In this document: piece by piece, positions 20,048-39,991 of the stretch
Layout of the letters: each line of letters begins with the position of its first letter
How positions within the stretch are numbered: position 1 is the stretch's first letter
Assembly: GCA_900473795.1 (NCBI GenBank)
Contig: UCMT01000007.1
Coordinates: 1-64,000 of the forward strand
Origin: Hyphomicrobiales bacterium
Lineage (GTDB): Bacteria > Pseudomonadota > Alphaproteobacteria > Rhizobiales > Rhizobiaceae
Direction: 5' to 3'
Length of the DNA: 64,000 bases
Notes under the pieces: model-generated
The model's database searches: none
What the model saw: only the letters and a program-made list of their open reading frames with translations
Told to the model about the DNA's origin: nothing
Program-made: the position numbers and the translations under genes

Positions 20048-21160
20048 ATGGCCCAAATCAGCGATCAGAACCCCGAAAAACACCCCGCGGAGAGCGCTGC
20101 GCCGTCTGACAGCACGGCGCATTCTGGTGATGTTTCTGGGCTGCCGTCGCCGACCGACAATGCATCGTCCCTACCCAGCCATCTCAAAGAGCTGGCCGAT
20201 CGCGCCCGCACCTATGTCGAGGCCGCCAGTTCCCCCAATACCCGTCGCGCCTACGCTTCCGACTGGAAGCATTTCGCTGCCTGGTGCCGGCGCCAGAATG
20301 TTTCGCCCCTCCCTCCGGATCCGCAAGTCGTTGGCCTCTACATAACTGCCTGCGCCTCCGGAACCGCCGAGCGCAGCATGAAGGCAAACTCCGTCTCGAC
20401 CATCGAACGGCGCCTTTCGGCCATCAGCTGGAACTGCACCCAGCGGGGCATGCCGCTCGATCGCAAGGACCGCGCCATCGCCACGGTGATGGCCGGCATT
20501 CGCAACACGCACGCCGCCCCGCCCCGGCAGAAGGAAGCCATTCTGCCGGAAGACCTGATCGCCATGCTGGAGACGCTGGACCGCGGAACCCTGCGCGGCC
20601 TGCGCGACCGGGCGATGCTGCTGATCGGCTTTGCCGGCGGCCTGCGCCGCTCGGAAATCGTCGGGCTTGATCTTGGCCGCGACCAAACCGAGGACGGCCG
20701 CGGCTGGATCGAGATCCTCGACAAAGGAGTGCTGGTGACGTTGCGCGGCAAGACCGGCTGGCGCGAGGTGGAGGTCGGCCGCGGCTCCTCCGACACCACC
20801 TGCCCTATCGTGGCCGTCGAAACCTGGATCAAGTTTGGAAAGCTCGCCAAAGGTCCCCTCTTCCGCCGCGTCCGGGGCCAAGGCAAGGATGTCGGCCCGG
20901 ACCGCCTCAACGACAAGGAGGTCGCCCGCCTCGTCAAGGCGGCGGCGCTTGCCGCCGGTGTTCGCGGTGACCTCAGCGAAGGGGAGCGGGCGGCGAAATT
21001 CTCCGGCCATTCGCTGCGCGCCGGCCTTGCCTCCTCGGCCGAGGTCGACGAACGCTACGTCCAGAAGCAGCTCGGCCATGCCTCCGCCGAGATGACCCGA
21101 AAATACCAGCGCCGCAGGGACCGGTTCCGCATCAATCTGACAAAGGCTGCCGGGCTCTGA
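20048..21160 (+). CDS. tyrosine-type site-specific integrase (370 aa)
   Basis: A DNA recombinase. An N-terminal SAM-like core-binding domain spans residues ~35-145 (ARTYVEAASSPNTRRAYASD, then WKHFAAWCRRQNVSPLPPD). The catalytic domain has the first Arg in GFAGGLRRSEIVGLD (near residue 200), HxxR in GHSLRAGLASSAEV, the GH of KQLGHAS and the nucleophile Tyr in MTRKYQRRRDRF, so it appears intact. The first ~35 residues are Ser/Pro-rich and disordered. The start has no clear Shine-Dalgarno sequence and the promoter is overlapped by a palindrome. It marks a mobile or formerly mobile segment; no att repeats could be identified by eye. Confidence 0.9.
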   Translation: MAQISDQNPEKHPAESAAPSDSTAHSGDVSGLPSPTDNASSLPSHLKELADRARTYVEAASSPNTRRAYASDWKHFAAWCRRQNVSPLPPDPQVVGLYITACASGTAERSMKANSVSTIERRLSAISWNCTQRGMPLDRKDRAIATVMAGIRNTHAAPPRQKEAILPEDLIAMLETLDRGTLRGLRDRAMLLIGFAGGLRRSEIVGLDLGRDQTEDGRGWIEILDKGVLVTLRGKTGWREVEVGRGSSDTTCPIVAVETWIKFGKLAKGPLFRRVRGQGKDVGPDRLNDKEVARLVKAAALAAGVRGDLSEGERAAKFSGHSLRAGLASSAEVDERYVQKQLGHASAEMTRKYQRRRDRFRINLTKAAGL

Positions 21161-23279: not shown

Positions 23280-24002
23280 CTACTTCACATACAGCGCGCT
23301 TGATCTCTCAAGGTGCACTAACATTGCGACTTCGGCCCTATCGGCATCCGCTGCTGCCAGTCGATCTACTATCTTCTCGTGTTCAACAAGCGTGAACTTT
23401 TCCTTGCCGGTCCAAATGAGCATGTCGGTGTGATATTCCTTGAGCCAGGCTAACATCGCCTCGCTGACTGCAACGAAGATCGGATTGCCCGAGATCCGGG
23501 CGATGCGGGTGTGAAATTGCATATCGGCGGAAATGAATTCTTCGGCTTTTCCCAATGATCGCCGCTGCCGTTCGAGGATTTCGCGCAGTTCTTCGATGTC
23601 CCGCTCGGTGGCTTTTGCGGCTGCTTCGCGCGCCATCCCTCGCTCGAAAAAGATACGCGCGTTTTTCAGGTGTTCCAGCGAGTCGGATGATCGCGACAAC
23701 ATGATCTTCGCGGTCGCATCGACTTGCCGGAAGATGGACTGCGCGGTCAACTCCAAAACCTTCGCCCGCTCGCCGTGAGAAATCGCGACCAGGCCCATGT
23801 TCGCCAGCGATTGCATCGCTTCGCGTATCGCGGGGCGGCCGACGCCAAAGCGCTCCATGAGGACACGTTCCGACGGCATGTCGTCGCCCGGCTTCAATTC
23901 ACCCGATATAATCATCCGCTCAAGACGGTCAAACACTTCATCGGAGAGTTTGCGCCTCACGATCTGCTCTACTGGCTGGCTCATGCTGACTCGCTGGGTC
24001 AA
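23280..24002 (-). CDS. GntR/FadR-family regulator, NanR-like (240 aa)
   Basis: Residues ~15-80 form a winged helix (EVFDRLERMIISGELKPGDD, then MPSERVLMERFGVGRPAIRE). Residues ~100-230 form an FCD ligand-binding domain with the metal-type His and Asp residues (ADMQFHTRIARISGNPIFVA, EHEKIVDRLAAAD). The initiation codon at 24002 is TTG with a very strong GGAGG seven bases upstream; an ATG at 23984 is the alternative. Divergent from the apiose-type operon, it is the likely local regulator. GGTATA, the half-site known for NanR, is contained in the operators at 24111 and 28093. The inducer would be a pathway intermediate. Confidence 0.9.
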   Translation of the reverse strand: MTQRVSMSQPVEQIVRRKLSDEVFDRLERMIISGELKPGDDMPSERVLMERFGVGRPAIREAMQSLANMGLVAISHGERAKVLELTAQSIFRQVDATAKIMLSRSSDSLEHLKNARIFFERGMAREAAAKATERDIEELREILERQRRSLGKAEEFISADMQFHTRIARISGNPIFVAVSEAMLAWLKEYHTDMLIWTGKEKFTLVEHEKIVDRLAAADADRAEVAMLVHLERSSALYVK

Positions 24003-24110
24003 GGTCTTCCTCCTTATGCACCTGAGCTCACTGGCAAGGAAAGATCAAGTCGCCGTTTTAAGCCGAAAACTTTCCAGGGATAACCTAAAACATCTTGCGC
24101 GAATTGGAAT

Positions 24111-24133
24111 ACTCATTATACCAGATAATGAGT
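24111..24133. promoter_or_regulatory. GntR/NanR-type operator of oiaX promoter
   Basis: A palindrome with 9-base arms ACTCATTAT and ATAATGAGT around ACCAG. The 14 bases ACTCATTATACCAG recur exactly at 28093-28106, before apnO. On the opposite strand the element reads CTGGTATAATGAGT, containing GGTATA. It sits in the divergent promoter between the GntR gene and the RuBisCO-like gene. Confidence 0.75.
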
Positions 24134-24179
24134 TGGCGTCATCAATGAGCATGTTGGCGAGAGGAGCAACGGACAATTC

Positions 24180-25436
24180 ATGATGATCACCCTCACCTAC
24201 CGTATTGAAACGCCCGGCAGCGTCGACGCCATGGCGGAAAAGATCGCCAGCGACCAGTCGACAGGTACCTTCGTACCGGTTCCAGGTGAGACACAGGAAC
24301 TGAAGGCCCGCGTCGCCGCCCGTGTGCTCGCCATTCGTCCCCTTCCCGATGCGCCGTCCCCAAGCTGGCCGGAGGCACCGGCGGGGTACGGCATCATCCA
24401 CCGCGCCGACGCAGATATCGCCTTCCCGCTCGATGCCATCGGCACCGATCTCTCCGCTTTGATGACCATTGCTGTCGGCGGCATCTTTTCCATTCGCGGC
24501 ATGACTGGCCTGAGGGTTGTGGATCTCAAGCTGCCCGAAGCCTATCGCGGCGCCTATCCCGGCCCGCAGTTCGGTCTTGTCGGGAGCCGGAAGCTCACCG
24601 GCGTCTACGACCGCCCGATCATCGGCACCATCGTCAAGCCTGCGCTTGGCCTGCGTCCGCAGGAAACCGCGGAACTCGTCGGCGAACTCATCCAATCCGG
24701 CGTCGATTTCATAAAGGACGACGAGAAACTCATGAGCCCGGTCTATTCTCCGCTCAAGGAACGCGTTGCCGCCATCATGCCCAAGATCCTCGATCATGAG
24801 CAGAAGACCGGCAAGAAGGTGATGTATGCGTTCGGCATCTCGCACACCGATCCGGACGAGATGATGCGAAACCACGACCTCGTTCTGAAGGCGGGTGGGA
24901 ACTGCGCCGTCATCAACATCAACTCCATCGGCATGGGCGGCATGGCATTTGTGCGCAAACGCTCTGGCCTCGCGTTGCACGCTCATCGCAACGGCTGGGA
25001 CGTGCTGACGCGCCATCCCGGCATTGGTTTCGATTTCAAGGTCTGGCAGCAATTCTGGCGGCTGCTCGGCGTCGACCAGTTCCAGATCAACGGCATCGGC
25101 GTTAAGTACTGGGAACCGGACGAGAGCTTCGTCGAATCTTTCAAGGCTGTCACTACGCCGCTGTTCGACGCGTCCGACTGCGCGCTCCCCGTTGCAGGCT
25201 CGGGTCAATGGGGCGGGCAAGCACCGGAAACCTATCACCGCACCGGCCGCACGACTGATCTTCTCTATCTGTGCGGCGGCGGCATCGTCAGCCATCCGGG
25301 CGGGCCTGCCGCCGGCGTACATGCCGTGCAACAGGCCTGGCAAGCAGCGGTTGCCGATATCCCGCTCGAAACCTTTGCCAAGGACCATCCGGAGCTGGCG
25401 GCATCGCTTAGGAAATTCGGCGGCAAAGGCGAGTGA
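24180..25436 (+). CDS. oiaX: RuBisCO-like protein, probable 3-oxo-isoapionate-4-phosphate decarboxylase (418 aa)
   Basis: A form IV RuBisCO large-subunit homologue. The N-terminal domain covers residues 1-130 and the TIM barrel the rest. The active-site strand GTIVKPALG and the carbamylation motif GVDFIKDDEKLMS (Lys, Asp and Glu kept) are present, as is the His/Arg pair in LALHAHRNG. It lacks the residues and small subunit of true CO2-fixing enzymes, and its neighbours are a sugar-acid kinase and tetrose-phosphate isomerases. Known RLPs of D-apiose catabolism are OiaX (decarboxylase to L-erythrulose-1-P) and OiaT (transcarboxylase/hydrolase giving 3-phosphoglycerate and glycolate). Two downstream tetrulose-phosphate isomerases favour OiaX. 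The family call is firm; the exact reaction is inferred from context. Confidence 0.85.
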   Translation: MMITLTYRIETPGSVDAMAEKIASDQSTGTFVPVPGETQELKARVAARVLAIRPLPDAPSPSWPEAPAGYGIIHRADADIAFPLDAIGTDLSALMTIAVGGIFSIRGMTGLRVVDLKLPEAYRGAYPGPQFGLVGSRKLTGVYDRPIIGTIVKPALGLRPQETAELVGELIQSGVDFIKDDEKLMSPVYSPLKERVAAIMPKILDHEQKTGKKVMYAFGISHTDPDEMMRNHDLVLKAGGNCAVININSIGMGGMAFVRKRSGLALHAHRNGWDVLTRHPGIGFDFKVWQQFWRLLGVDQFQINGIGVKYWEPDESFVESFKAVTTPLFDASDCALPVAGSGQWGGQAPETYHRTGRTTDLLYLCGGGIVSHPGGPAAGVHAVQQAWQAAVADIPLETFAKDHPELAASLRKFGGKGE

Positions 25437-25441
25437 GACCC

Positions 25442-26782
25442 ATGACGAAACACGATCCGCTTCTTTCCTATTACGGCGACGACCTCACCGGCTCCACCGA
25501 TGTGATGGAAGCGCTCGCCTCCAGCGGCGTGGAGACCGTCCTGTTCATGGACATTCCGGATGAAGGTCTTCTGCAGCGCTTCGGCCATTGCCGCGCCATC
25601 GGTCTTGCAGGCACGAGCCGCAGTCAAGCCCCGGACTGGATGGATGAACACCTGACGCCCGCCCTGGCATGGTTGAAAAGCCTGAATGCCGCTATCTGCC
25701 ATTATAAGGTTTGCTCGACCTTCGACTCGAGCCCGCAGATCGGCAGTATCGGTAAGGCGGTCGAGATCGGAAAAAGACTGTTCGATCAGGCCTATGTTCC
25801 CCTCATCGTCGGCGCGCCGCAACTGAAACGCTATACAGCCTTCGGCCATCTCTTCGCCGCCTATCAGGGCGAGGTCTATCGCATCGACCGTCATCCCGTG
25901 ATGAACCGCCACCCTGTGACCCCCATGGCGGAGGCAGACCTGCGCTTGCACCTCAAGGGACAGACGGAGCTTGAGGCCCGGCTTGCCGATCTCTCGATGC
26001 TGGCCGCCGCAGACGCCGATGACAGAATCGATGCCCTCTGCAAAAGCGCAGACGGCATTATACTGTTCGACGTCGACAGCGCCGAAAGCCAGGTCAATGC
26101 CGGTCGCCAGCTCTGGCGGCGGAACCCCGGCAATGGCTGGTTCGTCTGTGGTTCGTCGGGCGTCGAATACGCACTCCTTACCGCCTGGTCGCAAGCCGGG
26201 CTGACGCAAGGACGCAGGACGTTTCCGCTCCCCGGAAAGGTCGACCGCATCGCGATAGTTTCCGGTAGCGTCTCGCCCACCACCGAACGCCAGATCCGCC
26301 ACGCAACCGAAAACGGCTTTACCGGCATCAACCTCGACCCGATGGAACTCCTTGGAGAGGACAGCAACGCTGCGCTGGAACGAGCCATCGCCGCCGGCAT
26401 CGAATGTCTGCAAAAGGGCCGCAGCGTGATCCTCCACACTGCGCTGGGCCCGTCTGCCGACCGTGGCAGCATTATTGACAGGATCGCTGGCAGCCGCCAT
26501 CGCCTTGGCCGGATGATCGGCAAAATTCTGTGCCGCCTGGTTGAGGAACAGTACCTGACGCGCGCTGTCATTGCTGGCGGCGACACGTCAAGCCATGCGT
26601 TACGAGAGCTGAGCGTCGAGGCGCTGACGACCTTGCTACCGCTGCCCCAGACGCCCGGCTCCCCCCTTTGCACGGCCCACGGCAGACATGCACCGACGAA
26701 CGGTCTGCAGATCGCCCTGAAGGGCGGCCAGGTGGGTTCGGATGCCTATTTCTCGCAGATCCGGGACGGCGTGCAGGCGTAA
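25442..26782 (+). CDS. oiaK: four-carbon acid sugar kinase family, probable 3-oxo-isoapionate kinase (446 aa)
   Basis: A DUF1537-type kinase. The N-terminal substrate-binding domain starts SYYGDDLTGSTDVMEALASS, with the family DDLTGSxD motif. The C-terminal nucleotide-binding domain has VIAGGDTSSHALRELSVEAL and a GQVGSDAYFSQIRDG ending. These kinases phosphorylate four-carbon and branched sugar acids. Here, one base pair of context away from the RLP gene (the frames nearly overlap at 25434-25442), the expected reaction is ATP-dependent formation of 3-oxo-isoapionate-4-phosphate. I chose ATG 25442 over a GTG at 25433. The substrate is inferred from the operon. Confidence 0.82.
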   Translation: MTKHDPLLSYYGDDLTGSTDVMEALASSGVETVLFMDIPDEGLLQRFGHCRAIGLAGTSRSQAPDWMDEHLTPALAWLKSLNAAICHYKVCSTFDSSPQIGSIGKAVEIGKRLFDQAYVPLIVGAPQLKRYTAFGHLFAAYQGEVYRIDRHPVMNRHPVTPMAEADLRLHLKGQTELEARLADLSMLAAADADDRIDALCKSADGIILFDVDSAESQVNAGRQLWRRNPGNGWFVCGSSGVEYALLTAWSQAGLTQGRRTFPLPGKVDRIAIVSGSVSPTTERQIRHATENGFTGINLDPMELLGEDSNAALERAIAAGIECLQKGRSVILHTALGPSADRGSIIDRIAGSRHRLGRMIGKILCRLVEEQYLTRAVIAGGDTSSHALRELSVEALTTLLPLPQTPGSPLCTAHGRHAPTNGLQIALKGGQVGSDAYFSQIRDGVQA

Positions 26783-26800
26783 TCGAGGGGGAATGAAACG

Positions 26801-27562
26801 ATGACGTTCTGGGTAGGGACGAGCTTCAAGATGAACAAGCTGCTCTCGGAGGCTCTCGCCTTTGCGAATGCTCTTGTCGTTACGGATGCCGCGCGCGATG
26901 CGCGCATTCAGCGCTTTGTCATCCCGCCGTTCACCGCCGCGCGTGAGGTCAAGGCGGCGCTGAAGGGTACCTCGGTGAAGATTGGAGCCCAGAACATGCA
27001 CTGGGACGATGCCGGCGCCTGGACCGGCGAGATCTCTGCGCCGATGCTGGTCGATTGCGGGCTCGATCTGGTCGAACTTGGCCATAGCGAGCGCCGAGAA
27101 TTCTTCGGCGAGACGGACGAGACTGTTGGATTGAAGGTCGAGAGCGCCGTGCGTCATGCTTTGATTCCGCTGATCTGCATCGGCGAGACGCTTGTGGAGC
27201 GCGAGAGCGGGCGGGCGGACGCGGTGCTGAAGGCGCAGGTCGAAGGTGCGCTTGGGCGGCTTCAGGGCGAGGCTAAGAATGCTGACATCCTGCTCGCCTA
27301 CGAGCCGGTCTGGGCGATCGGCGTCAAGGGCATTCCGGCATCCTCGGACTATGCCGATGCGCGCCATGCGAAAATCTCCGCAGCCGCGCAAGCCGTGCTC
27401 GGGCGCAAAATCCCGGTGCTCTATGGCGGTAGCGTCAATCCAGACAATTGCGTGGAGTTCGCCGCCTGCGCCCATATCGACGGGCTGTTCATCGGCCGCT
27501 CGGCCTGGGCGGTTTCCGGCTATCTCGACATTCTTGGCCGCGTCTCCAAGGCGCTCCCCTGA
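26801..27562 (+). CDS. lerI: triose-phosphate-isomerase-like, probable L-erythrulose-1-phosphate isomerase (253 aa)
   Basis: A TpiA homologue with all catalytic parts: the N-terminal Lys in WVGTSFKMNK, the electrophilic His in ELGHSERREFFGETD, the base Glu in LLAYEPVWAIG, the flexible loop just after it and the phosphate-binding YGGSVNPDN. The sequence around the first strand (TSFKMNK instead of GNWKMN) is the form of the tetrulose-phosphate isomerases LerI/EryH rather than glycolytic TpiA. Placed in the middle of the operon, it would convert L-erythrulose-1-P to D-erythrulose-4-P. Its start follows GAGGGGGAATG. Confidence 0.82.
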   Translation: MTFWVGTSFKMNKLLSEALAFANALVVTDAARDARIQRFVIPPFTAAREVKAALKGTSVKIGAQNMHWDDAGAWTGEISAPMLVDCGLDLVELGHSERREFFGETDETVGLKVESAVRHALIPLICIGETLVERESGRADAVLKAQVEGALGRLQGEAKNADILLAYEPVWAIGVKGIPASSDYADARHAKISAAAQAVLGRKIPVLYGGSVNPDNCVEFAACAHIDGLFIGRSAWAVSGYLDILGRVSKALP

Positions 27563-27592
27563 ACCAGGTTACGACAAACGGAAGGACATCCC

Positions 27593-28030
27593 ATGAATAT
27601 CGCCATCGGAGCAGACAGCGCGGGCAAGCCGCTGCTCGAGGTCATAGCCGCCCATTTAGCCACCCGGCCGCACCTTAAGGTCAGCGACCTCAGCCAATCC
27701 GGCTACTATGCCGACCTGGCGTTGGCGCTGGCGCAGACCATCATCGATGGTCAGAACGAGCGCGGCATTCTGATCTGCGGCACGGGCATCGGCGTAGCGA
27801 TTTCGGCTAACAAGGTGCCCGGCATCCGCGCCGCTCTGACCCACGACACCTATTCGGCTGAACGCGCGGCGAAGTCTAACAACGCGCAGATCATCACCAT
27901 GGGTGCCCGCGTCATCGGCCCGGAACTTGCCAAGAGGATCGTCGACAAATGGCTGGAATCCGACTTCGACCCCAACGGCGCGTCCGCCGAAAATGTCGAG
28001 GCCATCAACCGACTGGACAGGGTGAAGTAA
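27593..28030 (+). CDS. derI: RpiB-like isomerase, probable D-erythrulose-4-phosphate isomerase (145 aa)
   Basis: A LacAB/RpiB family sugar-phosphate isomerase of normal size. The start [20 protein letters not shown] carries the family Asp. The active loop [20 protein letters not shown] is in the middle; in this subgroup the Cys of CGTG acts as the base. The stretch [20 protein letters not shown] with His and Arg binds phosphate. In this operon it would isomerise D-erythrulose-4-P to D-erythrose-4-P, which enters the pentose phosphate pathway. Generic ribose-5-phosphate isomerase activity cannot be excluded from sequence alone. Confidence 0.82.
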
Positions 28031-28092
28031 GCGAGCAAGCGGGCTGCGAGGCCGGTGAGGAAAAATTCGTCGTTCTACTGATATACTGATTG

Positions 28093-28106
28093 ACTCATTA
28101 TACCAG
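28093..28106. promoter_or_regulatory. second GntR operator half-site, before apnO
   Basis: An exact copy of ACTCATTATACCAG from 24111-24124. The second arm is degenerate here (ATATAGTCA). It lies 40 bases before the apnO start within the 115-base gap after derI, and suggests an internal promoter or operator so that the two halves of the cluster are co-regulated. Confidence 0.65.
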
Positions 28107-28145
28107 TCGCATATAGTCATCGCAAACAGACATAAGCGAGGAAAA

Positions 28146-28973
28146 ATGACGTCAATTGCTCTCTTCGGCGCCGGCGGCAAAATGGGCTACCGGCTGGCCA
28201 AGAACCTAAAAGGCTCGCGCTTTGACGTGCGCCACATCGAAGTCAGCGACGCGGGTCAGGCGCGGCTGAAAAACGATCTCGAGATCTCCTGCGTGCCGGC
28301 CAATGCCGGGCTGGATGGCGCCGACGTCGTCATTCTCGCCGTTCCGGATACGGCAATCGGCAAGGTCGCGGCCAGCATCGTCGACAAGCTCGTAGCCGGC
28401 ACCATGGTTGTGGCTCTCGACGCGGCCGCCCCCTTTGCCGGCCACCTGCCGGTGCGGGCCGATCTCACCTATTTCGTCACCCATCCCTGCCATCCGCCGA
28501 TCTTCAACGACGAAACGGACATGGCCGCGAAGCGGGATCATTTCGGCGGTCTGTTTGCCAAGCAGCATATCGTTTCCGCCCTGATGCAGGGACCGGAAGA
28601 GGCCTACGGCCTCGGCGAAGAGATCGCCAAGGTCATCTGGTCGCCGGTCATGCGCTCGCATCGCGTTACTGTCGAGCAGATGGCAATGCTGGAGCCGGGC
28701 CTATCGGAAACCGTCTGCGCCTCGCTGCTGGTCGTCATGAAGCAGGCCATGGACGAGTGTGTGAAACGCGGTGTGCCGGAGGAGGCCGCTCGTGACTTCC
28801 TGCTCGGCCACATGAACGTGCTCGGCGCCGTGATCTTCGGCGAAGTGCAGGGCGTGTTCTCCGATGCCTGCAACAAAGCCATTGAATTCGGCATCCCGGC
28901 GCTGATGCGCGACGACTGGAAAAAAGTCTTCGAACCACAGGAGATCGCCGAGAGCATTCGGCGCATCACCTGA
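28146..28973 (+). CDS. apnO: probable D-apionate oxidoisomerase (275 aa)
   Basis: An NAD(P)-binding protein of the 6-phosphogluconate/ketol-acid dehydrogenase superfamily. The Rossmann motif ALFGAGGKMGYRLAKNLKGS is at the N-terminus, VVILAVPDTAIGKVA follows, and a conserved block YFVTHPCHPPIFNDETDM and a helical C-terminal domain (EEAARDFLLGHMNVLGAVIF) complete it. This pattern fits the ApnO family, which oxidises D-apionate and migrates a hydroxymethyl group to give 3-oxo-isoapionate. It is preceded by AGCGAGGAAAA and by an operator half-site. The assignment relies on family memory plus neighbours. Confidence 0.8.
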   Translation: MTSIALFGAGGKMGYRLAKNLKGSRFDVRHIEVSDAGQARLKNDLEISCVPANAGLDGADVVILAVPDTAIGKVAASIVDKLVAGTMVVALDAAAPFAGHLPVRADLTYFVTHPCHPPIFNDETDMAAKRDHFGGLFAKQHIVSALMQGPEEAYGLGEEIAKVIWSPVMRSHRVTVEQMAMLEPGLSETVCASLLVVMKQAMDECVKRGVPEEAARDFLLGHMNVLGAVIFGEVQGVFSDACNKAIEFGIPALMRDDWKKVFEPQEIAESIRRIT

Positions 28974-28978
28974 TCGCC

Positions 28979-29993
<1,015 letters not shown>

Positions 29994-30010
29994 TCCTCCC
30001 AAAGAATGCG

Positions 30011-30037
30011 CGCAGGGCGGACACACTCCGTCCTGCG
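30011..30037 (+). terminator. hairpin between binding protein and DUF2291 gene
   Basis: An 11-bp stem (CGCAGGGCGGA with TCCGTCCTGCG, one G-T pair) and a CACAC loop, followed by TTTATTT. It resembles a leaky rho-independent terminator, which would raise binding-protein mRNA over the downstream transporter genes. Confidence 0.6.
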
Positions 30038-30066
30038 TTTATTTCCATGCGCCGGAGCAGAATTCC

Positions 30067-30711
30067 ATGCCGAACTTCGTGACAGCCGCCGCAATCTCGC
30101 TCGCCATCGTGCTGGCCGTGCCCGGTTGCAAGATCATCAAGACGCCGACGCCCGAAGAGGCCGCAGAAGCTGCAAGCGGCGGGTTCAATCCCGATCGCCA
30201 GGTCGCGGAAGTATGGGGAGCAAAAGTCATTCCGTTCCTGGAAACGCGCGCCGGAACCTTCCAGGAGGTTTCCGCTCTGTCGAAATCCGATCTCGATGCC
30301 GCCGCGGCAAAATACGGCCACAAGGAAAAGGACGGCACGGCCCCCTGGACATTTGCCGCGAAAGTCTCCGGCACGATCGTTAAGGCCGAAACGAAATCCC
30401 GTGCTGCCTACCTCGACACTGATGTCGATGGCGACGGCAAGGCGGATGTGCGCGTCCAGATCGGCCCGGTCATCAAGGGCACCGCGATCCGCGACAGCCT
30501 CGACTTCGTCAATTTCAACGAATTCAAGAACCAGATCCAGTGGGCTGAATTCGGCAAGGCCTTCAACATCCATGTCAACGGCTTGACGCTCGAAAAGCTG
30601 CCGCGCGAAGGCCTCGAAGGCAACCATGTGGAAGCGCTCGGCGCCTATCCCCTGCCGTCCGCTGGCCAGCCGGCGTTGCTGACGCCCGCCACCATTACGA
30701 TCGGCGGCTGA
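30067..30711 (+). CDS. DUF2291 lipoprotein of sugar ABC cassette (214 aa)
   Basis: The start MPNFVTAAAISLAIVLAVPG ends in a lipobox (VPGC), so the protein should be a membrane-anchored periplasmic lipoprotein. The body contains a conserved beta-rich domain (WGAKVIPFLETRAGTFQEVS, AAKVSGTIVKAETKSRAAYL, then VQIGPVIKGTAIRDSLDFVN). Such DUF2291 proteins accompany ribose-type ABC systems in rhizobia and other bacteria, but their task is not known to me. The stop is one base before the ATPase start, so it is firmly part of the operon. Confidence 0.85.
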   Translation: MPNFVTAAAISLAIVLAVPGCKIIKTPTPEEAAEAASGGFNPDRQVAEVWGAKVIPFLETRAGTFQEVSALSKSDLDAAAAKYGHKEKDGTAPWTFAAKVSGTIVKAETKSRAAYLDTDVDGDGKADVRVQIGPVIKGTAIRDSLDFVNFNEFKNQIQWAEFGKAFNIHVNGLTLEKLPREGLEGNHVEALGAYPLPSAGQPALLTPATITIGG

Positions 30712-30712
30712 C

Positions 30713-32269
30713 ATGGCAGCCGAGACACACGAGACCATCCTAAAGCTCGACGACGTGACGAAAGTCTATTCTGGCATCGTCGCAGTCAAGCATGCGAGCC
30801 TCGAACTGAAGCGCGGCGCGGTCAACGTGCTCGTCGGCGAAAACGGCGCCGGCAAGTCGACGCTGATGCGCATGATCGCCGGCGTCGAGAAACCTTCTCT
30901 CGGCCGCATCCTGCTCGATGGCAAGGAAGTCGAGTTCAACTCCCCGGCCGATGCGCAGAGGCATGGCATCGGCATGGTGTTCCAGGAACTCAATCTGTTC
31001 GGCAACCTCTCGGCCGCCGAAAACATCTTCGCGACCCGGGAGATCACCCGCGGCATTCGCGGCATCGATCACAAAGCGCAGGTCGAAAAGGCCAATCATT
31101 TCCTCGACAAGCTGGATGCCGGCATCAGCGCCGAGACCATGGTCGAGGACCTGCCGATCGGCCAGCAGCAGCTCGTCGAAATCGCCAAGGCGATCTCGCT
31201 CGACACCCGCATCCTTATTCTCGACGAGCCGACCTCGGCCCTGTCTGCCGCCGAAGTCGATATCCTGTTCAAAGTGATCGGCGAACTGAAGGCACAAGGC
31301 GTCGCCATCGTCTATATCTCGCATCGGCTCGAGGAGCTGATGCGCATCGGCGACTACATCACCGTGCTGCGCGACGGCCAGATCACCGGCCAGGCGATGG
31401 TGCGCGACATCGACACCAAGTGGATCGTCCGCTCGATGATCGGCTCGGATGCCAAGGATTTCGCCAAATCCGTCGATCACAAGCTCGGCAAGGAAGCCTT
31501 TCGCGTCGAAGACATCTGCCTGCCGCGCCGGACCGGCGGCCTCGCCGTCGATCATCTGTCGATCTCGGTCAAGACAGGCGAAGTGCTGGGGATCTATGGC
31601 CTGATGGGCGCCGGCCGTAGCGAGTTCTTCGAATGCGTCATTGGCCAGCATGCGCACTCCACCGGCAAGATCTTCGTCGCCGGCGAAGAGATCGTCGCCA
31701 AGGATACCTCCACCCGTATCCGCAAGGGACTTGCCCTCATCCCGGAAGACCGGCAACGCGAAGGCCTTGTGCAGGTCCTGTCGATCGCCTCCAATCTAAC
31801 GCTGGCGAGCCTCGAAAAATTCGTGAAATTCGGCTTCCACATTTCCGGCGAGCGCGAGCAGGCGGCTGTCAAGGAGCAGGTCCGCAACCTCTCGATCAAG
31901 GCGCCGAATCCAGATTTCGACGTCACCTCAATGTCCGGCGGCAACCAGCAGAAGGTCGTGATTGGCAAGGCGCTGATGACCAATCCGAAGGTGCTGCTGA
32001 TGGACGAGCCGAGCCGCGGCATCGATGTCGGCGCCAAGGCGGATGTCTTCCGCACCATGCGCAGGCTCGCCGGTGAAGGCCTCGCCATCCTGTTTTCCAC
32101 CTCCGACCTCGAGGAGGTCATGGCGCTGTCCGACCGCATCGCCGTGATGAGCAACGGCAAGGTAGCGACGATCCTTGACCGGGCGGATGCCACCGAAGAG
32201 CTCATCGTCAAGGCTGCGTCCGAGGGACACAAATCGGCCGAACACAAAACCATTGGGGAAATTGCGTGA
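30713..32269 (+). CDS. sugar ABC transporter ATP-binding protein, double NBD (518 aa)
   Basis: An RbsA/MglA-like ATPase. The first domain has Walker [15 protein letters not shown] near residue 42, the unusual signature LPIGQQQLVEIAKA and Walker [13 protein letters not shown]. The second has a degenerate P-loop (LMGAGRSEFFECVIG, near 300), the signature MSGGNQQKVVIGKAL and Walker B VLLMDEPSRGIDVG. The second site lacks the normal Walker A Lys, as usual in this family. The 3' end overlaps the permease start (ATGA). Confidence 0.92.
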   Translation: MAAETHETILKLDDVTKVYSGIVAVKHASLELKRGAVNVLVGENGAGKSTLMRMIAGVEKPSLGRILLDGKEVEFNSPADAQRHGIGMVFQELNLFGNLSAAENIFATREITRGIRGIDHKAQVEKANHFLDKLDAGISAETMVEDLPIGQQQLVEIAKAISLDTRILILDEPTSALSAAEVDILFKVIGELKAQGVAIVYISHRLEELMRIGDYITVLRDGQITGQAMVRDIDTKWIVRSMIGSDAKDFAKSVDHKLGKEAFRVEDICLPRRTGGLAVDHLSISVKTGEVLGIYGLMGAGRSEFFECVIGQHAHSTGKIFVAGEEIVAKDTSTRIRKGLALIPEDRQREGLVQVLSIASNLTLASLEKFVKFGFHISGEREQAAVKEQVRNLSIKAPNPDFDVTSMSGGNQQKVVIGKALMTNPKVLLMDEPSRGIDVGAKADVFRTMRRLAGEGLAILFSTSDLEEVMALSDRIAVMSNGKVATILDRADATEELIVKAASEGHKSAEHKTIGEIA

Positions 32270-33333
32270 TGACCACGGCAACCGTGACCGAAAATGCACC
32301 GGCAACCGATAGCGGCTCCATCCTTTTGACGCTGATGAAGCTCAGGACGTTCATTGCGCTCTTTGCCGTCATCGCCTTCTTCTCGATCTTCGCGCCGAAC
32401 TTTCTGTCGACAGCCAATATCATCCTGATGTCGAAGCATGTGGCGCTGAATGCTTTCCTCGCCATGGGCATGACTTTCGTCATCATCACCGGCGGCATCG
32501 ACCTTTCGGTCGGCTCGATCGTCGGCCTTTGCGGCATGGTCGCCGGCGGTCTGATCCTCAACGGCATCGATCTGCAGTTCGGCTATACGATGTATTTCAA
32601 CGTCGTCGAGGTCTGCCTGATCACCCTCGCCGTCGGCGTCGTCATTGGTGCGGTCAACGGACTGCTCATTACCAAACTCAACGTCGCCCCCTTCATCGCC
32701 ACGCTCGGCACGCTCTACGTCGCCCGCGGCTTCGCGCTGCTCTCGTCCGACGGCCAGACCTTCCCGAACCTCGTCGGCAAGACCGAGCTTTCCACCACCG
32801 GCTTCGGCTTCCTCGGCTCCGGCCGCATCATCGGCCTGCCGGTGTCGATCTGGATCCTGATCGTCGTTGCGCTCGCCGCCGCCTATGTCGCCAAATATGT
32901 GCCGATCGGCCGCCAGATCTTCGCTGTCGGCGGCAACGAGCGCGCCGCTCGCATGTCCGGCATCCGCGTCGATCGTGTCAAGATGTTCGTCTACATGTTC
33001 TCCGGCTTCTGCGCCGCGATCGTCGGCATAGTCATCTCCTCCGAACTGATGGCCTCGCACCCGGCAACCGGCAACTCGTTCGAGCTTAACGCAATCGCCG
33101 CAGCCGTTCTCGGTGGCACCTCGATGTCCGGAGGTCGCGGCACGATCGGTGGCACCATCATCGGCGCCTTCGTCATTGGCATCCTGTCCGATGGCCTGGT
33201 GATGATGGGTGTTTCCTCCTTCTGGCAGATGGTGATCAAGGGTATCGTCATCATCGTTGCGGTGGTGGTCGACCAAGCCCAGCGCCGCTTGCAGCAGCAG
33301 GTGACGTTGATGCAATTGGCAAAGAAGGGTTGA
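32266..33333 (+). CDS. sugar ABC transporter permease, RbsC-like (355 aa)
   Basis: An integral membrane subunit with 8-10 hydrophobic segments (RTFIALFAVIAFFSIFAPNF near residue 27). It has the family loops FLAMGMTFVIITGGIDLSVG and FAVGGNERAARMSGIRVDRV that face the ATPase. The ATGA overlap with the ATPase gene indicates coupling. It completes a full importer (binding protein, DUF2291, ATPase, permease) inside the D-apiose-type locus. Confidence 0.92.
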   Translation: MMTTATVTENAPATDSGSILLTLMKLRTFIALFAVIAFFSIFAPNFLSTANIILMSKHVALNAFLAMGMTFVIITGGIDLSVGSIVGLCGMVAGGLILNGIDLQFGYTMYFNVVEVCLITLAVGVVIGAVNGLLITKLNVAPFIATLGTLYVARGFALLSSDGQTFPNLVGKTELSTTGFGFLGSGRIIGLPVSIWILIVVALAAAYVAKYVPIGRQIFAVGGNERAARMSGIRVDRVKMFVYMFSGFCAAIVGIVISSELMASHPATGNSFELNAIAAAVLGGTSMSGGRGTIGGTIIGAFVIGILSDGLVMMGVSSFWQMVIKGIVIIVAVVVDQAQRRLQQQVTLMQLAKKG

Positions 33334-33338
33334 AAAGA

Positions 33339-34373
33339 ATGATGGAATTGCGTGGCGCCCTGATCGGTTGCGGCTTCTTCGCCGTCAATCAGATGCATGG
33401 CTGGAGGGATGTCAACGGCGCGTCCATCGTCGCTATTTGCGACCGCGACCCCGAGCGGCTGAAGCTCGTCGGCGACCAGTTCGGCGTCGACCGCCGCTAT
33501 ACTGATGCGAGGCAGATGTTTACAAATGGCGGCTTCGATTTCGTCGATATCGCAACCACGGTCAACAGTCATCGCACACTGGTGGAAATGGCCGTCGCCC
33601 ACAAGGTTCCTGCCATCTGCCAGAAGCCGTTTGCCCCGACGCTTGCGGATGCCAAGGCCATGGTCGCCGCCTGCGAGGCTGCCGGCATTCCCCTCATGAT
33701 CCACGAGAATTTCCGCTGGCAGACACCGATCCAGGCCGTCCGCAAGGCGCTGGACTCGGGCGCGATCGGCGCGCCGTTCTGGGGCCGCTTCTCCTTCCGC
33801 TCCGGCTACGACGTCTTTTCCGGCCAGCCTTACCTTGCGGAAGGCAAGCGCTTCATCATCGAGGACCTCGGCATCCACACACTGGATATCGCCCGCTATA
33901 TCCTTGGCGACGTGACGAGCCTGTCCGCGCGAACCAAGCGCGTTAATCCGAAAATCCGCGGCGAGGACGTGGCGACCATCCTGCTCGACCACAACAGCGG
34001 CGCCACCTCCATTGTCGATGTCAGCTATGCAACCAGACAATCCGTCGAACCCTTCCCGGAAACGCTGATCGAGCTCGACGGTACGCAGGGCTCGCTGCGC
34101 CTGTCGCAAGGCTACGAGCTGCAGGTCACCAATGCCGAGGGAACGACGAACACCGACGTCGCGCCAATCTTGCTGCCCTGGGCTTCGCGGCCGTGGCACA
34201 ATATCCAGGAAAGCGTCTTTGCCATCCAGCAGCACTGGGCCGATTGCCTCCGCCGCCAAGAAGAAACGTGCACCTCCGGCGCCGACAATCTGAAGACCTT
34301 CGCCCTCGTCGAAGCCGCCTATGAAAGCGCCGCCTCCAAGGCGACCGTCGAGGTCCGGACCTTGCTGAAATGA
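33339..34373 (+). CDS. apsD: Gfo/Idh/MocA oxidoreductase, probable D-apiose dehydrogenase (344 aa)
   Basis: An NAD(P)-dependent dehydrogenase. The N-terminal Rossmann segment is RGALIGCGFFAVNQMHGWRD. The CxKPF-type catalytic Lys is in ICQKPFAPTLADAKAM (near residue 95). The substrate domain has IIEDLGIHTLDIARYIL with the His/Asp pair. In the apiose route this family member oxidises D-apiose to D-apionolactone. The frame extends 3 codons upstream to a TTG, but ATG 33339 has AAGGG at correct spacing. Its stop overlaps the next ATG (ATGA), tying it to the lactonase-like gene. Confidence 0.83.
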   Translation: MMELRGALIGCGFFAVNQMHGWRDVNGASIVAICDRDPERLKLVGDQFGVDRRYTDARQMFTNGGFDFVDIATTVNSHRTLVEMAVAHKVPAICQKPFAPTLADAKAMVAACEAAGIPLMIHENFRWQTPIQAVRKALDSGAIGAPFWGRFSFRSGYDVFSGQPYLAEGKRFIIEDLGIHTLDIARYILGDVTSLSARTKRVNPKIRGEDVATILLDHNSGATSIVDVSYATRQSVEPFPETLIELDGTQGSLRLSQGYELQVTNAEGTTNTDVAPILLPWASRPWHNIQESVFAIQQHWADCLRRQEETCTSGADNLKTFALVEAAYESAASKATVEVRTLLK

Positions 34374-36316
34374 GCGACACGGCAACTGCCTTTCAGCTTT
34401 ACGGAACCATCAAGGCCGAACCCGTCCCGCGTCTCCTGCGGGCCGGAAAACTGACGGCACAATTCGCTGGCGGCAATCTTCGTGCCATCACTTACGACGG
34501 CGTCGAAGTCCTGCGCGCCATTTCCTATGTGGTCCGCGACCGCGACTGGGGCACCTACAACCCCACGCTGTCTAACCTTGCTGTCACCGAAACGGAGAGC
34601 GGCTTCACCGTCTCCTACGACGCCCGTTGCGACGGCCCGAACGGCACGGTTCTCGACATTGTTGCAATGATCGAAGCAGGTGCCGGTGGCAAACTGACGT
34701 TCAGGAGCAGCGCCTGTTCCGCCACAGGCTTCGAGACCAATCGCTGCGGCTTCTGCATGCTGCATCCCATCATCGGCGTCGCAGGAACGCCAGTCTCCGT
34801 CGAGCATGTCGATGGCGAGATTGAGAACACCAAACTGCCCGTTCTCATAGATCCCTGGCAGCCCGTCAAAAACCTGCGCGCCATCACCCATACAGCACTT
34901 CCCGACGTCAGCGTCGAATGCCGCATGGAAGGCGACACGTTCGAGATGGAAGACCAACGCAACTGGTCGGACGCCTCCTACAAGACCTATGTTCGCCCAT
35001 TGTCCCTGCCCTGGCCCTATAAGATTCTGGAAAACGAGCCCATCCTCCAGCAAATCACCCTGACAATCACCGACCGCCGCGCCGCTTCGGGCGATCGCCC
35101 CGCCTCGGCCGAAAACTCCAGCGTCATCCGGCTAACGCCCGGGACTGCGTCCGGCACGATGCCCGGCATCAGCCTGGTGATTACCCCGGAGGAAGTCGAA
35201 GCCAGTCTCGCTGCCCTCGCGCGCCAGGATGGGCCAAAGGTTCAGGACCTGCTCTTCCACTTCGACCCCGCAGCCGGTCACGACGCCGCCGCCTTCAAGG
35301 GTTTTGCCGAGATTGCCGCCATCCACGGCGGCACGACAACGCTCGAATTCGCCGTCCCCTGCCAACGCCTGCTGGATGAGGAAATGCTGGGGATTGCCGC
35401 GTGGATGCGCGCCGCTGATTTCGCACCTAATGCCATCATGGTTTGCCCCTCTGTCGATCGCCAATCGACCCCGCCCGGTAGCAAATGGCCGGATTGTCCA
35501 CCGCTCGAGGATGTCTACGCAGCCGCAGCGAACGCATTTCCCGGCATTCGCCTCGGCGGCGGCATGCTCTCCTATTTCACCGAACTCAACCGCAAGCGCG
35601 TTCCAGCCGGAAATCTTGGTTTCGTCAGCCACTGCACCAGTCCCATTGTGCATTCGGCCGACGATCTCAGCATCATGCAGACACTTGAGGCACTACCCTT
35701 CATCACGAAGTCGGTCCGTGCCATCTATGGCGACAAGCCGTACCGGCTCGGCCCCTCCACCATCGCCATGCGACAAAACCCCTATGGCAGCCGCACGATG
35801 GACAACCCAGATTGCTGCCGCGTCCCGATGGCCAACCGTGATCCCCGCCACACCGGTCTGTTCGCCGCCGCCTTCGCCACCGGCTACGCCGCCTCAGTGC
35901 TGGATGCAGGTATCGAGACACTGACGCTATCAGCCCTCACCGGACCGTTTGGCCTCTTTGCTGGAAAAGACGAGCCGATCACCGAAGGCGGAAGACGACC
36001 GCTCTTTCATATTGTGGCCGGCCTGGCGGAACTGGCAGGGCAGCAGTGCCGTACCGTCGTTGCCTCCCATCCGCAAAAAGTCATGTCTTTCAGAACTGAA
36101 ATCGAAAAGGAGGCCACTCTGTGGATCGTCAATCTCGGCGCTCACGCACTAACGGTGGACATGAGCGAGTTGGTTAATCCAACGCGCGCTCAACTGATTG
36201 TGCTTGACGGGGATACAATGAGGAAAGCGACGAAATCCGGAGTAAAGTCAGTTGGAATCGTAAGGGCTCAGCTAAGACTTTCGCCTTTTGCCGTTGCCCG
36301 TGTCCACACCGCATGA
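34370..36316 (+). CDS. apnL: probable D-apionate lactonase (648 aa)
   Basis: A large protein unlike classical lactonases. An N-terminal beta-rich domain (LTAQFAGGNLRAITYDGVEV, near residue 28) is followed by a TIM-barrel-like part (HFDPAAGHDAAAFKGFAEIA; FVSHCTSPIVHSADDLSIMQ; RLGPSTIAMRQNPYGSRTMD) and a small beta domain at the end. It is always, as far as I recall, found beside apsD and apnO, where ApnL hydrolyses D-apionolactone to D-apionate. The size (~620-650 aa) and position as last gene of the cluster agree. It is cytoplasmic: no signal peptide is visible. The catalytic residues cannot be named from sequence alone. Confidence 0.8.
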   Translation: MSDTATAFQLYGTIKAEPVPRLLRAGKLTAQFAGGNLRAITYDGVEVLRAISYVVRDRDWGTYNPTLSNLAVTETESGFTVSYDARCDGPNGTVLDIVAMIEAGAGGKLTFRSSACSATGFETNRCGFCMLHPIIGVAGTPVSVEHVDGEIENTKLPVLIDPWQPVKNLRAITHTALPDVSVECRMEGDTFEMEDQRNWSDASYKTYVRPLSLPWPYKILENEPILQQITLTITDRRAASGDRPASAENSSVIRLTPGTASGTMPGISLVITPEEVEASLAALARQDGPKVQDLLFHFDPAAGHDAAAFKGFAEIAAIHGGTTTLEFAVPCQRLLDEEMLGIAAWMRAADFAPNAIMVCPSVDRQSTPPGSKWPDCPPLEDVYAAAANAFPGIRLGGGMLSYFTELNRKRVPAGNLGFVSHCTSPIVHSADDLSIMQTLEALPFITKSVRAIYGDKPYRLGPSTIAMRQNPYGSRTMDNPDCCRVPMANRDPRHTGLFAAAFATGYAASVLDAGIETLTLSALTGPFGLFAGKDEPITEGGRRPLFHIVAGLAELAGQQCRTVVASHPQKVMSFRTEIEKEATLWIVNLGAHALTVDMSELVNPTRAQLIVLDGDTMRKATKSGVKSVGIVRAQLRLSPFAVARVHTA

Positions 36317-36981: not shown

Positions 36982-38757
36982 ATGGGCGAGAATCGCAAGC
37001 TGGCCGCAATTCTGGCCGCCGACGTGGTCGGATACAGCAGGCTCGCAAGCGCGGACGAAGATCGTATTCTGGCGAGGTTGCGGGCACTGCGTAGCGACCT
37101 GATCGATCCAACTATAGCTGTGCACAACGGGCGCGTGATCAAGCGCACAGGCGATGGGGCATTGGTCGAATTCCGCAGCGTGGTGGACGCCGTCCGCTGC
37201 GCCGTCGAGGTGCAGAATGCCATGGTCGAACGCAATGCCGGCGTGCCCCAAGACCGCCGTATTGAGTTCCGAATCGGCATCCATTTGGGGGATGTGGTCG
37301 AGGAAAGCGACGGTGACCTGATGGGCGACGGCGTCAATATCGCGTCGCGCCTGGAGGGCGTCGCAGCGCCGGGCGCCATTTGCGTGTCGGAAGATGCCTA
37401 TCGCCAAGTCAAGGCCAGGCTCGATCTCTCTGTCACCGACCTCGGCAGCACACAGCTCAAGAACATCGCCGAGCCGATTCGGATCTATTCGCTCCAGGTC
37501 GGCGTCGCCGCACTGGCAAAGTCAACAGTGACCGCCTACGCCGCCGCTGGGCGCGTGCCAGCTGCATCGCCGCCGGCGTTCTCGATTGCGGTGCTGCCCT
37601 TCGCCAACATGAGCGGTGATGCCGAGCAAGAATACTTCGCCGATGGCATCTCCGAAGACATCATCACGGCTCTGTCGAAGCTGTCGCAGCTGTTCGTCAT
37701 CGCCCGCAACTCGTCGTTCACCTTCAAGGGCCGGAACGTGAACGTCCAAGAGGTGGGCCGCGGCCTTGGCGTGCGCTACGTGCTGGAGGGCAGTGTCCGC
37801 AAATCGGGCAGCAGGGTGCGGATCACCGCACAGCTGATCGACGCGACATCAGGCGGCCATCTGTGGGCGGAGCGTTTCGATCGCGACCTGACCGACATCT
37901 TTGCCGTGCAGGACGACGTAACGCAGCAGATTGTCGGCGCGCTCGCGCTCAACCTGAGAGAGGGCGACCAGCAGCGGCTGGCTGCGGAGCAGACCGAGAG
38001 CCTGGAAGCGTATGACTGCTTCCTTCGGGGCCGTGAACACATGTGGAGGTTGACGAGAGAGCAAAACACGCAGGGCCGGGAACTGTTGCAACGCGCCATC
38101 GAGCTTGACCCGAAATTCGTTCCGGCCTACGCGTTCCTCGCCGTCACACATGGGCTGGCCTACATCAACCAGTGGAGCCAATCGCCGTCGAAATCGCTTG
38201 AACAGGCGATTGAGGCTGCCACGCGGGCGGTGGCGCTCGACGATCAATATCCCTACGCACATTGGGCGCTCGGCGTCGTCAAACTGCACTTGCGACAGCA
38301 CGACGTGGCCATCGCCGAGGCCGAACGCGTGATCGCGCTTGCTCCCAATTTTGTCGAGGGGTACGAGAATCTCGGCAACGCACTGCACTATGCCGGAAGG
38401 TCGGCCGAGGCGCTCGCCTATTTCGAGCGGGCAATGGCCCTGAACCCCTATTACCCGGACCTGTTCCTGCACTTCTACGCGCAGGCGATGTTTCAGCTAG
38501 GCAGGTACGAGGAGGCCGTCGTCATCCTGAAGCGGCGGCTCGTCCGTAATCCAGACACAGACGTCTCGCGAGTGCTGCTGGCGGCGAGCTATGGTCACTT
38601 GGGGCGCTTCGAGGAGGCGCGCGGTGAGTGGGCGGAAGTGTTCCGAATCAATCCCGATTATTCCCTGGAGCACAGGCGCAAAGTACTGCCCTACAAGAAC
38701 CCTGCCGATTTCGAACGCATTGTGGACGGCCTGCGGCAGGCTGGCCTGACTAGCTGA
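36982..38757 (+). CDS. class III adenylate cyclase with TolB-like and TPR regions (591 aa)
   Basis: A probable cAMP-producing signalling protein. Residues 5-170 form a class III cyclase domain (RKLAAILAADVVGYSRLASA with the metal Asp; KRTGDGALVEFRSVVDAV with the second Asp; GDGVNIASRLEGVA). Residues ~200-330 form a TolB-N-like domain (IAVLPFANMSGDAEQEYFAD, GISEDIITALSKL, VRYVLEGSVRKSG). From ~350 to the end there are TPR-type helix pairs (NPYYPDLFLHFYAQAMFQLG). No transmembrane helix is visible, so it is cytoplasmic. Rhizobia carry many such cyclases, mostly with unknown signals. Confidence 0.88.
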   Translation: MGENRKLAAILAADVVGYSRLASADEDRILARLRALRSDLIDPTIAVHNGRVIKRTGDGALVEFRSVVDAVRCAVEVQNAMVERNAGVPQDRRIEFRIGIHLGDVVEESDGDLMGDGVNIASRLEGVAAPGAICVSEDAYRQVKARLDLSVTDLGSTQLKNIAEPIRIYSLQVGVAALAKSTVTAYAAAGRVPAASPPAFSIAVLPFANMSGDAEQEYFADGISEDIITALSKLSQLFVIARNSSFTFKGRNVNVQEVGRGLGVRYVLEGSVRKSGSRVRITAQLIDATSGGHLWAERFDRDLTDIFAVQDDVTQQIVGALALNLREGDQQRLAAEQTESLEAYDCFLRGREHMWRLTREQNTQGRELLQRAIELDPKFVPAYAFLAVTHGLAYINQWSQSPSKSLEQAIEAATRAVALDDQYPYAHWALGVVKLHLRQHDVAIAEAERVIALAPNFVEGYENLGNALHYAGRSAEALAYFERAMALNPYYPDLFLHFYAQAMFQLGRYEEAVVILKRRLVRNPDTDVSRVLLAASYGHLGRFEEARGEWAEVFRINPDYSLEHRRKVLPYKNPADFERIVDGLRQAGLTS

Positions 38758-39066: not shown

Positions 39067-39696
39067 TCAGATCTCAGTATGCTCCGCTAGTTCCAGTGCA
39101 TCCTCAATGTCCACTCCAAGGTACTTGACCGTATTTTCGATCTTGGTGTGCCCCAACAGGATTTGAATCGCGCGAAGATTGCCTGTCGCCTTGTAGATCA
39201 TTTGCGGCTTTAGTGCGCCGAAGCGAGTGCGTGCCGTAGTCTTCGCGTCGTAGACCAATTGCGGTCACCCATTCGTCGACCAATCGGGCATATTGGCGAG
39301 TACTCAGATGATCGGTATGGTCGACTCGACTGGGAAAGGCGTAGTCGTCAACTGTTCCACCTCGCCGCTCAAGCCATGCAAGCAAACTTGCCCTCACGTC
39401 CGCCGTGATTTCGAACTGAACCGGACGGCCGGTCTTTTGCTGGACGACCATGGCTCGGGTTCGAATTTCCGTTCCTGTCACGAGGCTTCCGATTTTCATT
39501 TTGACGAGATCGCAACCACGCAGCTTGCTGTCGATTGCGAGGTCAAACAAGGCGCGATCTCTCATGCGTCCCTGTCGAGGAAGAAGCGGATCGCCCAAAT
39601 CTGGCGCTGTTTTAGCGGCTTCTTGACGCCGACCTTTCGGCCCGCGTTCCAAGCCGGTCGTCCCAGTGCGTTAGGATCATATTGTGCAATACCCAT
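39067..39696 (-). pseudogene. tyrosine integrase with two frameshifts
   Basis: Reading from ATG 39696 (ribosome site GGAGAAC), the protein MGIAQYDPNALGRPAWNAGR continues to KKPLKQRQIWAIRFFLDR. A first frameshift near 39565 moves it to the frame MRDRALFDLAIDSKLRGCDL (39560 down to 39245). A second near 39240 moves it to MIYKATGNLRAIQILLGHTK. When joined the pieces give a small integrase of ~205 aa with Arg (SKLRGCDL), HSLRRT, LGHT and the Tyr of VKYLGVD. The catalytic residues are all still encoded, so the breaks are the only obvious damage. It lies between the two cyclase genes. Confidence 0.8.
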
Positions 39697-39991
39697 TTTC
39701 GTTCTCCTTTGACCAACATTGGCCGCGAGAGGAACTCATGAGAACACTGATGGGGCCGACACCAGTCCGTCCCCTTCCAGGACAGCCCAACAGGAAAGCG
39801 GAATTGCATCCCCTCGTGCGAAGGTCCGTTAATGGCCGCCCTGAGCGGACACTCCGACAAGGTCCAATCCAGCCAATAAATCTGGCACGAGCGAGGAAAC
39901 CAGTGTAGCCTTTGGAGGTTGAGAGGTTGGGATTTCCCCACCCCTGAGTAAAGCAATAGCGAGGCCATCTACACCCTCTGGAGAGGTGGTT

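Follow-up and report, generated by a model that had tools for sequence, protein, structure and literature searches.

D-apiose is a sugar of plant cell walls. In its catabolism, the enzymes OiaT and OiaX use the same compound, and the RuBisCO-like protein (RLP) of Agrobacterium radiobacter K84 is reported to be the decarboxylase OiaX, if the list in the cited passage is taken as respective (excerpt of PMC6302742). A strain with genes for ApnL, ApsD, ApnO, OiaK and OiaX is reported to grow on D-apiose (excerpt of PMC11747546). Two further systems bear on the locus described here: the tpiB-rpiB pair of the eryR-tpiB-rpiB set in erythritol loci, with A. radiobacter among the carriers (excerpt of PMC3599248), and the Escherichia coli regulator NanR, which binds GGTATA repeats and has (GGTATA)3 as its operator (excerpt of PMC8012715). 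Here, we analyze a stretch of 64,000 nucleotides (the window; positions 1 to 64,000 of contig UCMT01000007.1, assembly GCA_900473795.1) from a soil bacterium of the Rhizobiaceae (Hyphomicrobiales), and argue that its positions 23280-36316 very probably hold a complete set of genes for the oxidative breakdown of D-apiose, of the type that uses the decarboxylase OiaX.

All 12 genes of this locus recur in the same order, lerI-derI included, in Rhizobium etli CFN 42 p42f (RHE_RS26580-RS26635), at protein identities of 55-89%; there, dhaK-dhaL directly follow apnL, whereas the window has adenylate-cyclase/TPR genes in that place. Strain K84 belongs to R. rhizogenes, and the window RLP shares a clade with the RLPs of two R. 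rhizogenes loci (L047 and L061; our handles begin with L for loci and G for genomes), each 84% identical to it, which makes this a comparison by species and not with the K84 sequence. Unlike the window locus, these two do not contain lerI-derI. Of the named relatives in our genome scan, Rhizobium giardinii H152 is the closest (97% in OiaX). Because an RLP over the OiaX cut-off occurs in 87 of 394 sampled Rhizobiaceae genomes, and NCBI records of relatives already name the gene oiaX, novelty is low: the locus is a well-formed, ordinary example of an already described system, and a regulatory element and the pattern of the lerI-derI module are the sole additions to the known picture.

Gene content and the RuBisCO-like protein

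The locus consists of 12 intact open reading frames: eleven genes that run in one direction and a GntR/FCD regulator gene that diverges from them. Four of its gene junctions overlap by 4 nt. Families were assigned by Pfam and NCBIfam searches with the curated NCBIfam equivalog cut-offs, which three proteins pass: OiaX (NF042437, 769.9 bits against 700), ApnL (NF049900, 950.1 against 750) and, narrowly, DerI (NF051858, 243.0 against 240). These family scores, and the gene order that the window shares with R. etli CFN 42 across the 12 genes, exclude chance. ApnL is 648 aa long for a model of 595 positions; its longer C-terminus was considered as a peculiarity and rejected as ordinary variation, relatives having 604-647 aa.

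The source genome (6,385,884 bases, 101 contigs) contains one RuBisCO-family gene. In a midpoint-rooted tree of 53 RLPs, chosen from those fetched, its product falls into a clade of 35 (support 100/100) that includes the R. rhizogenes RLPs, separate from 18 other RLPs (39-49% identical to the window's), among which the tree carries a long-branch warning. Within the clade, 25 positions are nearly invariant that are absent from the 18 others. K153, K179-D180-D181-E182, H267, H269 and K309 are identical in all 53 aligned RLPs; from an alignment with an archaeal RuBisCO (3kdo) and RuBisCO numbering, we take these to be the RuBisCO metal site and the loop-6 lysine. Across the 394 genomes, RLP scores are bimodal, with the OiaX clade at 730-800 bits, then a gap, then values of 464 and below. 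Of the 87 OiaX genomes, 84 encode a TIM of the LerI type (E of 1e-75 or lower against the window LerI); so do 5 of the 41 genomes with only a more distant RLP class and 33 of the remaining 266, in a Rhizobiaceae sample uncorrected for relatedness. Fisher values for these counts share that limit and are not read as probabilities. These genome groups were listed by hand, and their totals of 87 (OiaX) and 122 (LerI) match those tallied by the tools; the 41 other-class genomes were read by eye (best RLP E roughly 1e-114 to 1e-140, no OiaX). The predicted identity of the RLP as OiaX rather than OiaT is supported because the curated model, the tree position with R. rhizogenes and the co-occurrence with LerI all point to it.

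Among the 80 best-matching relatives from the genome scan, on which all counts of relatives below are based, the regulator is present in 80, oiaK in 79, apnO in 74, and apsD and apnL in 78 each. The complete set of periplasmic sugar-binding protein (SBP), ATPase and permease is found in 68, and part of the shortfall in these counts is due to contig ends (e.g. L082). In PLSDB, 366 plasmid records have an RLP match, 328 of which cover at least 80% of the query.

From these genes we infer the following route. The ABC importer would take up D-apiose, which ApsD would oxidize to apionolactone; ApnL would then open the lactone ring to give D-apionate, and ApnO would rearrange and oxidize this to 3-oxo-isoapionate. 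After phosphorylation by OiaK, OiaX would remove CO2 from the resulting beta-keto acid via a metal-stabilized enediolate, yielding L-erythrulose 1-phosphate, which LerI and DerI would convert to D-erythrose 4-phosphate, feeding the pentose phosphate pathway. The beta-keto acid that OiaX acts on would be similar to RuBisCO's carboxylated intermediate, with the reaction taken in reverse.

A first-pass annotation, made from the letters of the window, had proposed this locus, and every gene it named is an open frame, in the order and within the range it gave; it omitted only the DUF2291 gene inside the importer operon. Its choice of OiaX over OiaT agrees with the three lines of evidence above. It had further claimed a step-by-step match to the D-apiose route, which holds at curated cut-offs for OiaX, ApnL and DerI, whereas OiaK scores below its cut-off and ApsD, ApnO and LerI are placed by domain and synteny. 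Its warning that automatic names would mislead is right only in part: NCBI records of relatives already name the RLP OiaX, and the names of the kinase, isomerases, dehydrogenases and lactonase remain generic.

Table 1. Predicted features of the D-apiose locus, in window coordinates
Feature	Position	Strand	Evidence
GntR/FCD regulator, NanR subfamily	23280..24002	-	FCD 79.1, GntR 68.6 bits; NF003011 356.1, cut-off 260
operator-like element 1 (20-mer), upstream of oiaX	24104..24123	+	0-3 mismatches in 80/80 relatives
oiaX, 3-oxo-isoapionate-4-phosphate decarboxylase (RuBisCO-like protein)	24180..25436	+	NF042437 (see text); RLP tree
oiaK, 3-oxo-isoapionate kinase (SBD_N/NBD_C four-carbon acid sugar kinase)	25433..26782	+	Pfam; NF042436, below cut-off (see text)
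lerI (TpiB/TIM-like), L-erythrulose-1-phosphate isomerase	26801..27562	+	TIM 235.5 bits; 70% to R. etli syntenic gene
derI (RpiB-like), D-erythrulose-4-phosphate isomerase	27593..28030	+	NF051858 (see text)
operator-like element 2 (13-base core), upstream of apnO	28093..28105	+	core with at most 2 mismatches in 73/74 sequences
apnO, D-apionate oxidoisomerase	28146..28973	+	PGDH_C 243.4 bits; 89% to R. etli syntenic gene
periplasmic sugar-binding protein (SBP) of importer	29052..29993	+	solved chains 5ibq/4ry0 (R. etli RHE_PF00037; see text)
DUF2291 predicted periplasmic lipoprotein, importer-associated	30067..30711	+	PF10054 197 bits; 68/80 relatives
sugar ABC transporter ATPase, two ABC domains	30713..32269	+	ABC_tran, two stretches
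ABC permease	32266..33333	+	BPD_transp_2 147.6 bits
apsD, D-apiose dehydrogenase (Gfo/Idh/MocA)	33330..34373	+	Pfam; 79% to R. etli syntenic gene
apnL, D-apionate lactonase	34370..36316	+	NF049900 (see text)

The NanR-type regulator and a conserved upstream element

The regulator, listed with a TTG start and with an ATG a few codons inside, fits the NanR subfamily model. Element 1 recurs within 600 bases upstream of oiaX in all 80 relatives (0, 1, 2 and 3 mismatches in 43, 17, 16 and 4 loci); for a control stretch taken 3 kb away, every match has at least 7 mismatches. In an alignment of 71 distinct sequences, its core columns lie near 2 bits and its flanks mostly well under 1. This 13-base core, ACTCATTATACCA, recurs 35-44 bases before the apnO start, where 56 of the 74 sequences have one mismatch, mostly CATACC for TATACC, giving the consensus ACTCAT[T/C]ATACCA. 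The exact T-form of the core occurs twice in the 6.4 Mb genome, both times at this locus, and the core read backwards has no copy in the whole genome. In the loci of relatives, the core at up to two mismatches was not found before the SBP, oiaK, lerI, permease, DUF2291 or apnL genes; it stands before apsD in 4 of 78, all of them loci in which apnO is missing from its usual position. The oiaX intergenic region gave no hit in a scan for palindromes (14-20 bases, up to two mismatches).

In 121 sampled Rhizobiaceae genomes, ACTCATYATACCA has exact matches at 33 places in 21 genomes, against 2 places for the reversed control. Within 13 kb of the match lies an OiaX gene in 28 cases, an other-class RLP gene in two and neither in three, and an exact match is present in 18 of 24 OiaX genomes but only 3 of 97 others. 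The three matches with no RLP nearby (G094:C17:212009, G026:C1:2864153 and G111:C38:43805) are either chance or extra members of the regulon.

We infer that the adjacent regulator binds this candidate operator, and probably controls two transcription starts via its two copies. The element before apnO divides the locus into two probable transcription units, oiaX-oiaK-lerI-derI and apnO-importer-apsD-apnL, a split that would allow gain or loss of lerI-derI without disturbing the importer half. Both elements hold TATACC, the reverse complement of the GGTATA bound by E. coli NanR, although the window element has one half-site where the E. coli operator has three direct repeats, and the adjoining genes are predicted to serve apiose and not sialic acid catabolism. 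A competing account, which we consider somewhat unlikely, is that the 13-base element is only part of a promoter, or the operator of some other regulator. The link between regulator and element is drawn from sequence, many relatives have a TTGC about 17 nt upstream, by which TATACC could be a -10 box, and CATACC takes its place before apnO in most of them; yet a promoter box would be shorter and less constant than this core, which occurs at both ends of the regulon and has the regulator gene next to it in all 80 relatives. We thus favor the adjacent NanR-type protein as the probable reader of the element. A literature search for apiose together with GntR, outside which most subscription journals lay, found nothing, so we do not claim the operator as unpublished.

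Importer, substrate and remaining assignments

Against the solved structures 5ibq and 4ry0, the SBP of the importer scores 543 bits; its identity to 4ry0, which is R. etli RHE_PF00037, is 87% (Foldseek). Across its mature part, the SBP of the R. etli locus equals 5ibq letter for letter in the printed alignment; we take 5ibq to hold alpha-D-apiose. A single-sequence fold of the window SBP was discarded (mean pLDDT 40.1) in favor of an alignment-based model (86.4). The predicted DUF2291 lipoprotein is found in 68 of 80 relatives, the same count as for the whole SBP/ATPase/permease set.

Several points weigh against the assignment of the locus to D-apiose and OiaX. The best of three models for OiaK, NF042436, gives 474.1 bits, below its cut-off of 700. 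ApnO (PGDH_C domain and synteny), ApsD (Gfo/Idh/MocA domains and synteny; nine NCBIfam matches, none over cut-off) and LerI (domain and position) are assigned without a discriminating curated model. Three of the 87 OiaX genomes have no LerI match at the cut used (G280, G312 and G328; G312 is a draft, 77% complete). OiaX-type genes also occur with no apsD, apnL or apnO nearby (L171-L173), so an OiaX score alone is no proof of apiose use, and the title of 4ry0 names a ribose transporter solute-binding protein. As for the kinase, the cut-off of 700 is likewise missed by that of the R. etli locus (473.2), by that of L148, a locus of the other RLP class (471.1), and by an R. rhizogenes fragment (430.4), so this entire kinase branch seems to lie outside it; oiaK overlaps oiaX by 4 nt, and the two are adjacent in 79 of 80 relatives. 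The solved relatives of ApnO, 5t57 and 3c24, carry no apionate oxidoisomerase name.

The RLPs of L171 (G328), L172 (G202) and L173 (G302) share about 68% identity with that of the window and exceed the OiaX cut-off. Their loci have no homologues of apsD, apnL or apnO in the 17 kb examined, and a different kinase (31%) and importer, which possibly indicates another substrate for OiaX-type decarboxylases. That the main substrate in the window, too, is another branched sugar or sugar acid (e.g. D-apionate or a related lactone) is very unlikely: the assignment to D-apiose is read from genes, and these three loci and the title of 4ry0 leave room for such a substrate, but this locus, like most of those in the 80 relatives, joins ApsD-type, ApnL and importer genes in one linked set.

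The lerI-derI pair and its setting

NCBIfam names the lerI product a triose-phosphate isomerase. It is a TIM-family protein distinct from the one further TIM of the source genome (38% identical) and is paired with derI, which begins 30 nt after it; derI is the only PF02502 gene of that genome, so the locus pair is the only such pair. The first-pass annotation had taken the presence of two isomerases as an argument for OiaX, and the co-occurrence counts given above bear this out. It is very unlikely that the RLP is OiaT, a transcarboxylase/hydrolase yielding 3-phosphoglycerate and glycolate, with both isomerases as passengers: OiaT and OiaX share one substrate (excerpt of PMC6302742), and other RLPs in this bacterial family adjoin similar kinase and apnO genes with no lerI-derI (L148-L151, L155-L157), but the window RLP passes the OiaX model, where the other-class RLPs tested reach 425-451 bits, it sits in a separate clade with clade-specific positions, and LerI is common with OiaX and scarce with the other class. 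An NCBIfam search with two RLPs of that class found no curated OiaT model.

With OiaX as the favored assignment, the last two steps would need an isomerase pair, whose placing varies among the 80 relatives. Within the stretch examined, 20 loci contain both lerI and derI, 2 contain derI alone and 5 have the pair upstream, whereas 53 have neither, so most loci must use an isomerase pair elsewhere. In L053 and L068, derI stands without lerI between oiaK and apnO. A tree of 61 DerI sequences places the window in a 45-row clade with in-locus genes, apart from a 16-row clade of upstream-type pairs; the larger clade also takes in pairs from genomes without OiaX, e.g. L119 at 88%. By this pattern of sequences, lerI-derI is a movable module. 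The tpiB-rpiB pair of erythritol loci is of the same kind, adjacent and in the same order (excerpt of PMC3599248), whereas the window pair sits inside an apiose locus and is the only such pair of its genome.

Phage-type integrase genes lie on both sides of the locus (20048-21160 and 39104-39652, the second encoding 182 aa), while tRNA genes, as marks of an island, are absent from the window. In L006, the nearest relative, the first integrase and the neighboring serA-like gene are absent from the 10 kb upstream. Directly downstream of the locus lie the genes of two adenylate-cyclase/TPR proteins of class III (36982-38757 and 39986-42301), of which one carries a rhodanese domain.

A wider reading, for and against which we find the balance even, would join the regulatory and isomerase patterns. 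Rhizobial apiose loci would make up a single regulon, whose two-site operator is the target of a NanR-type regulator responding to an intermediate of apiose breakdown; because some other-class RLP loci bear the operator as well, this regulation would predate the split of OiaX and OiaT. The tetrulose-phosphate isomerases would be a transferable erythritol-type module, either carried or borrowed. The observed lerI-derI pattern shows that a pathway can carry its own last two steps or lean on those of another pathway, and the operator-like element offers a cheap, specific marker for apiose regulons. The locus itself, as read here, is a clean and complete case of RuBisCO-fold chemistry that would break down carbon instead of fixing it, and confirms the reading of such loci.

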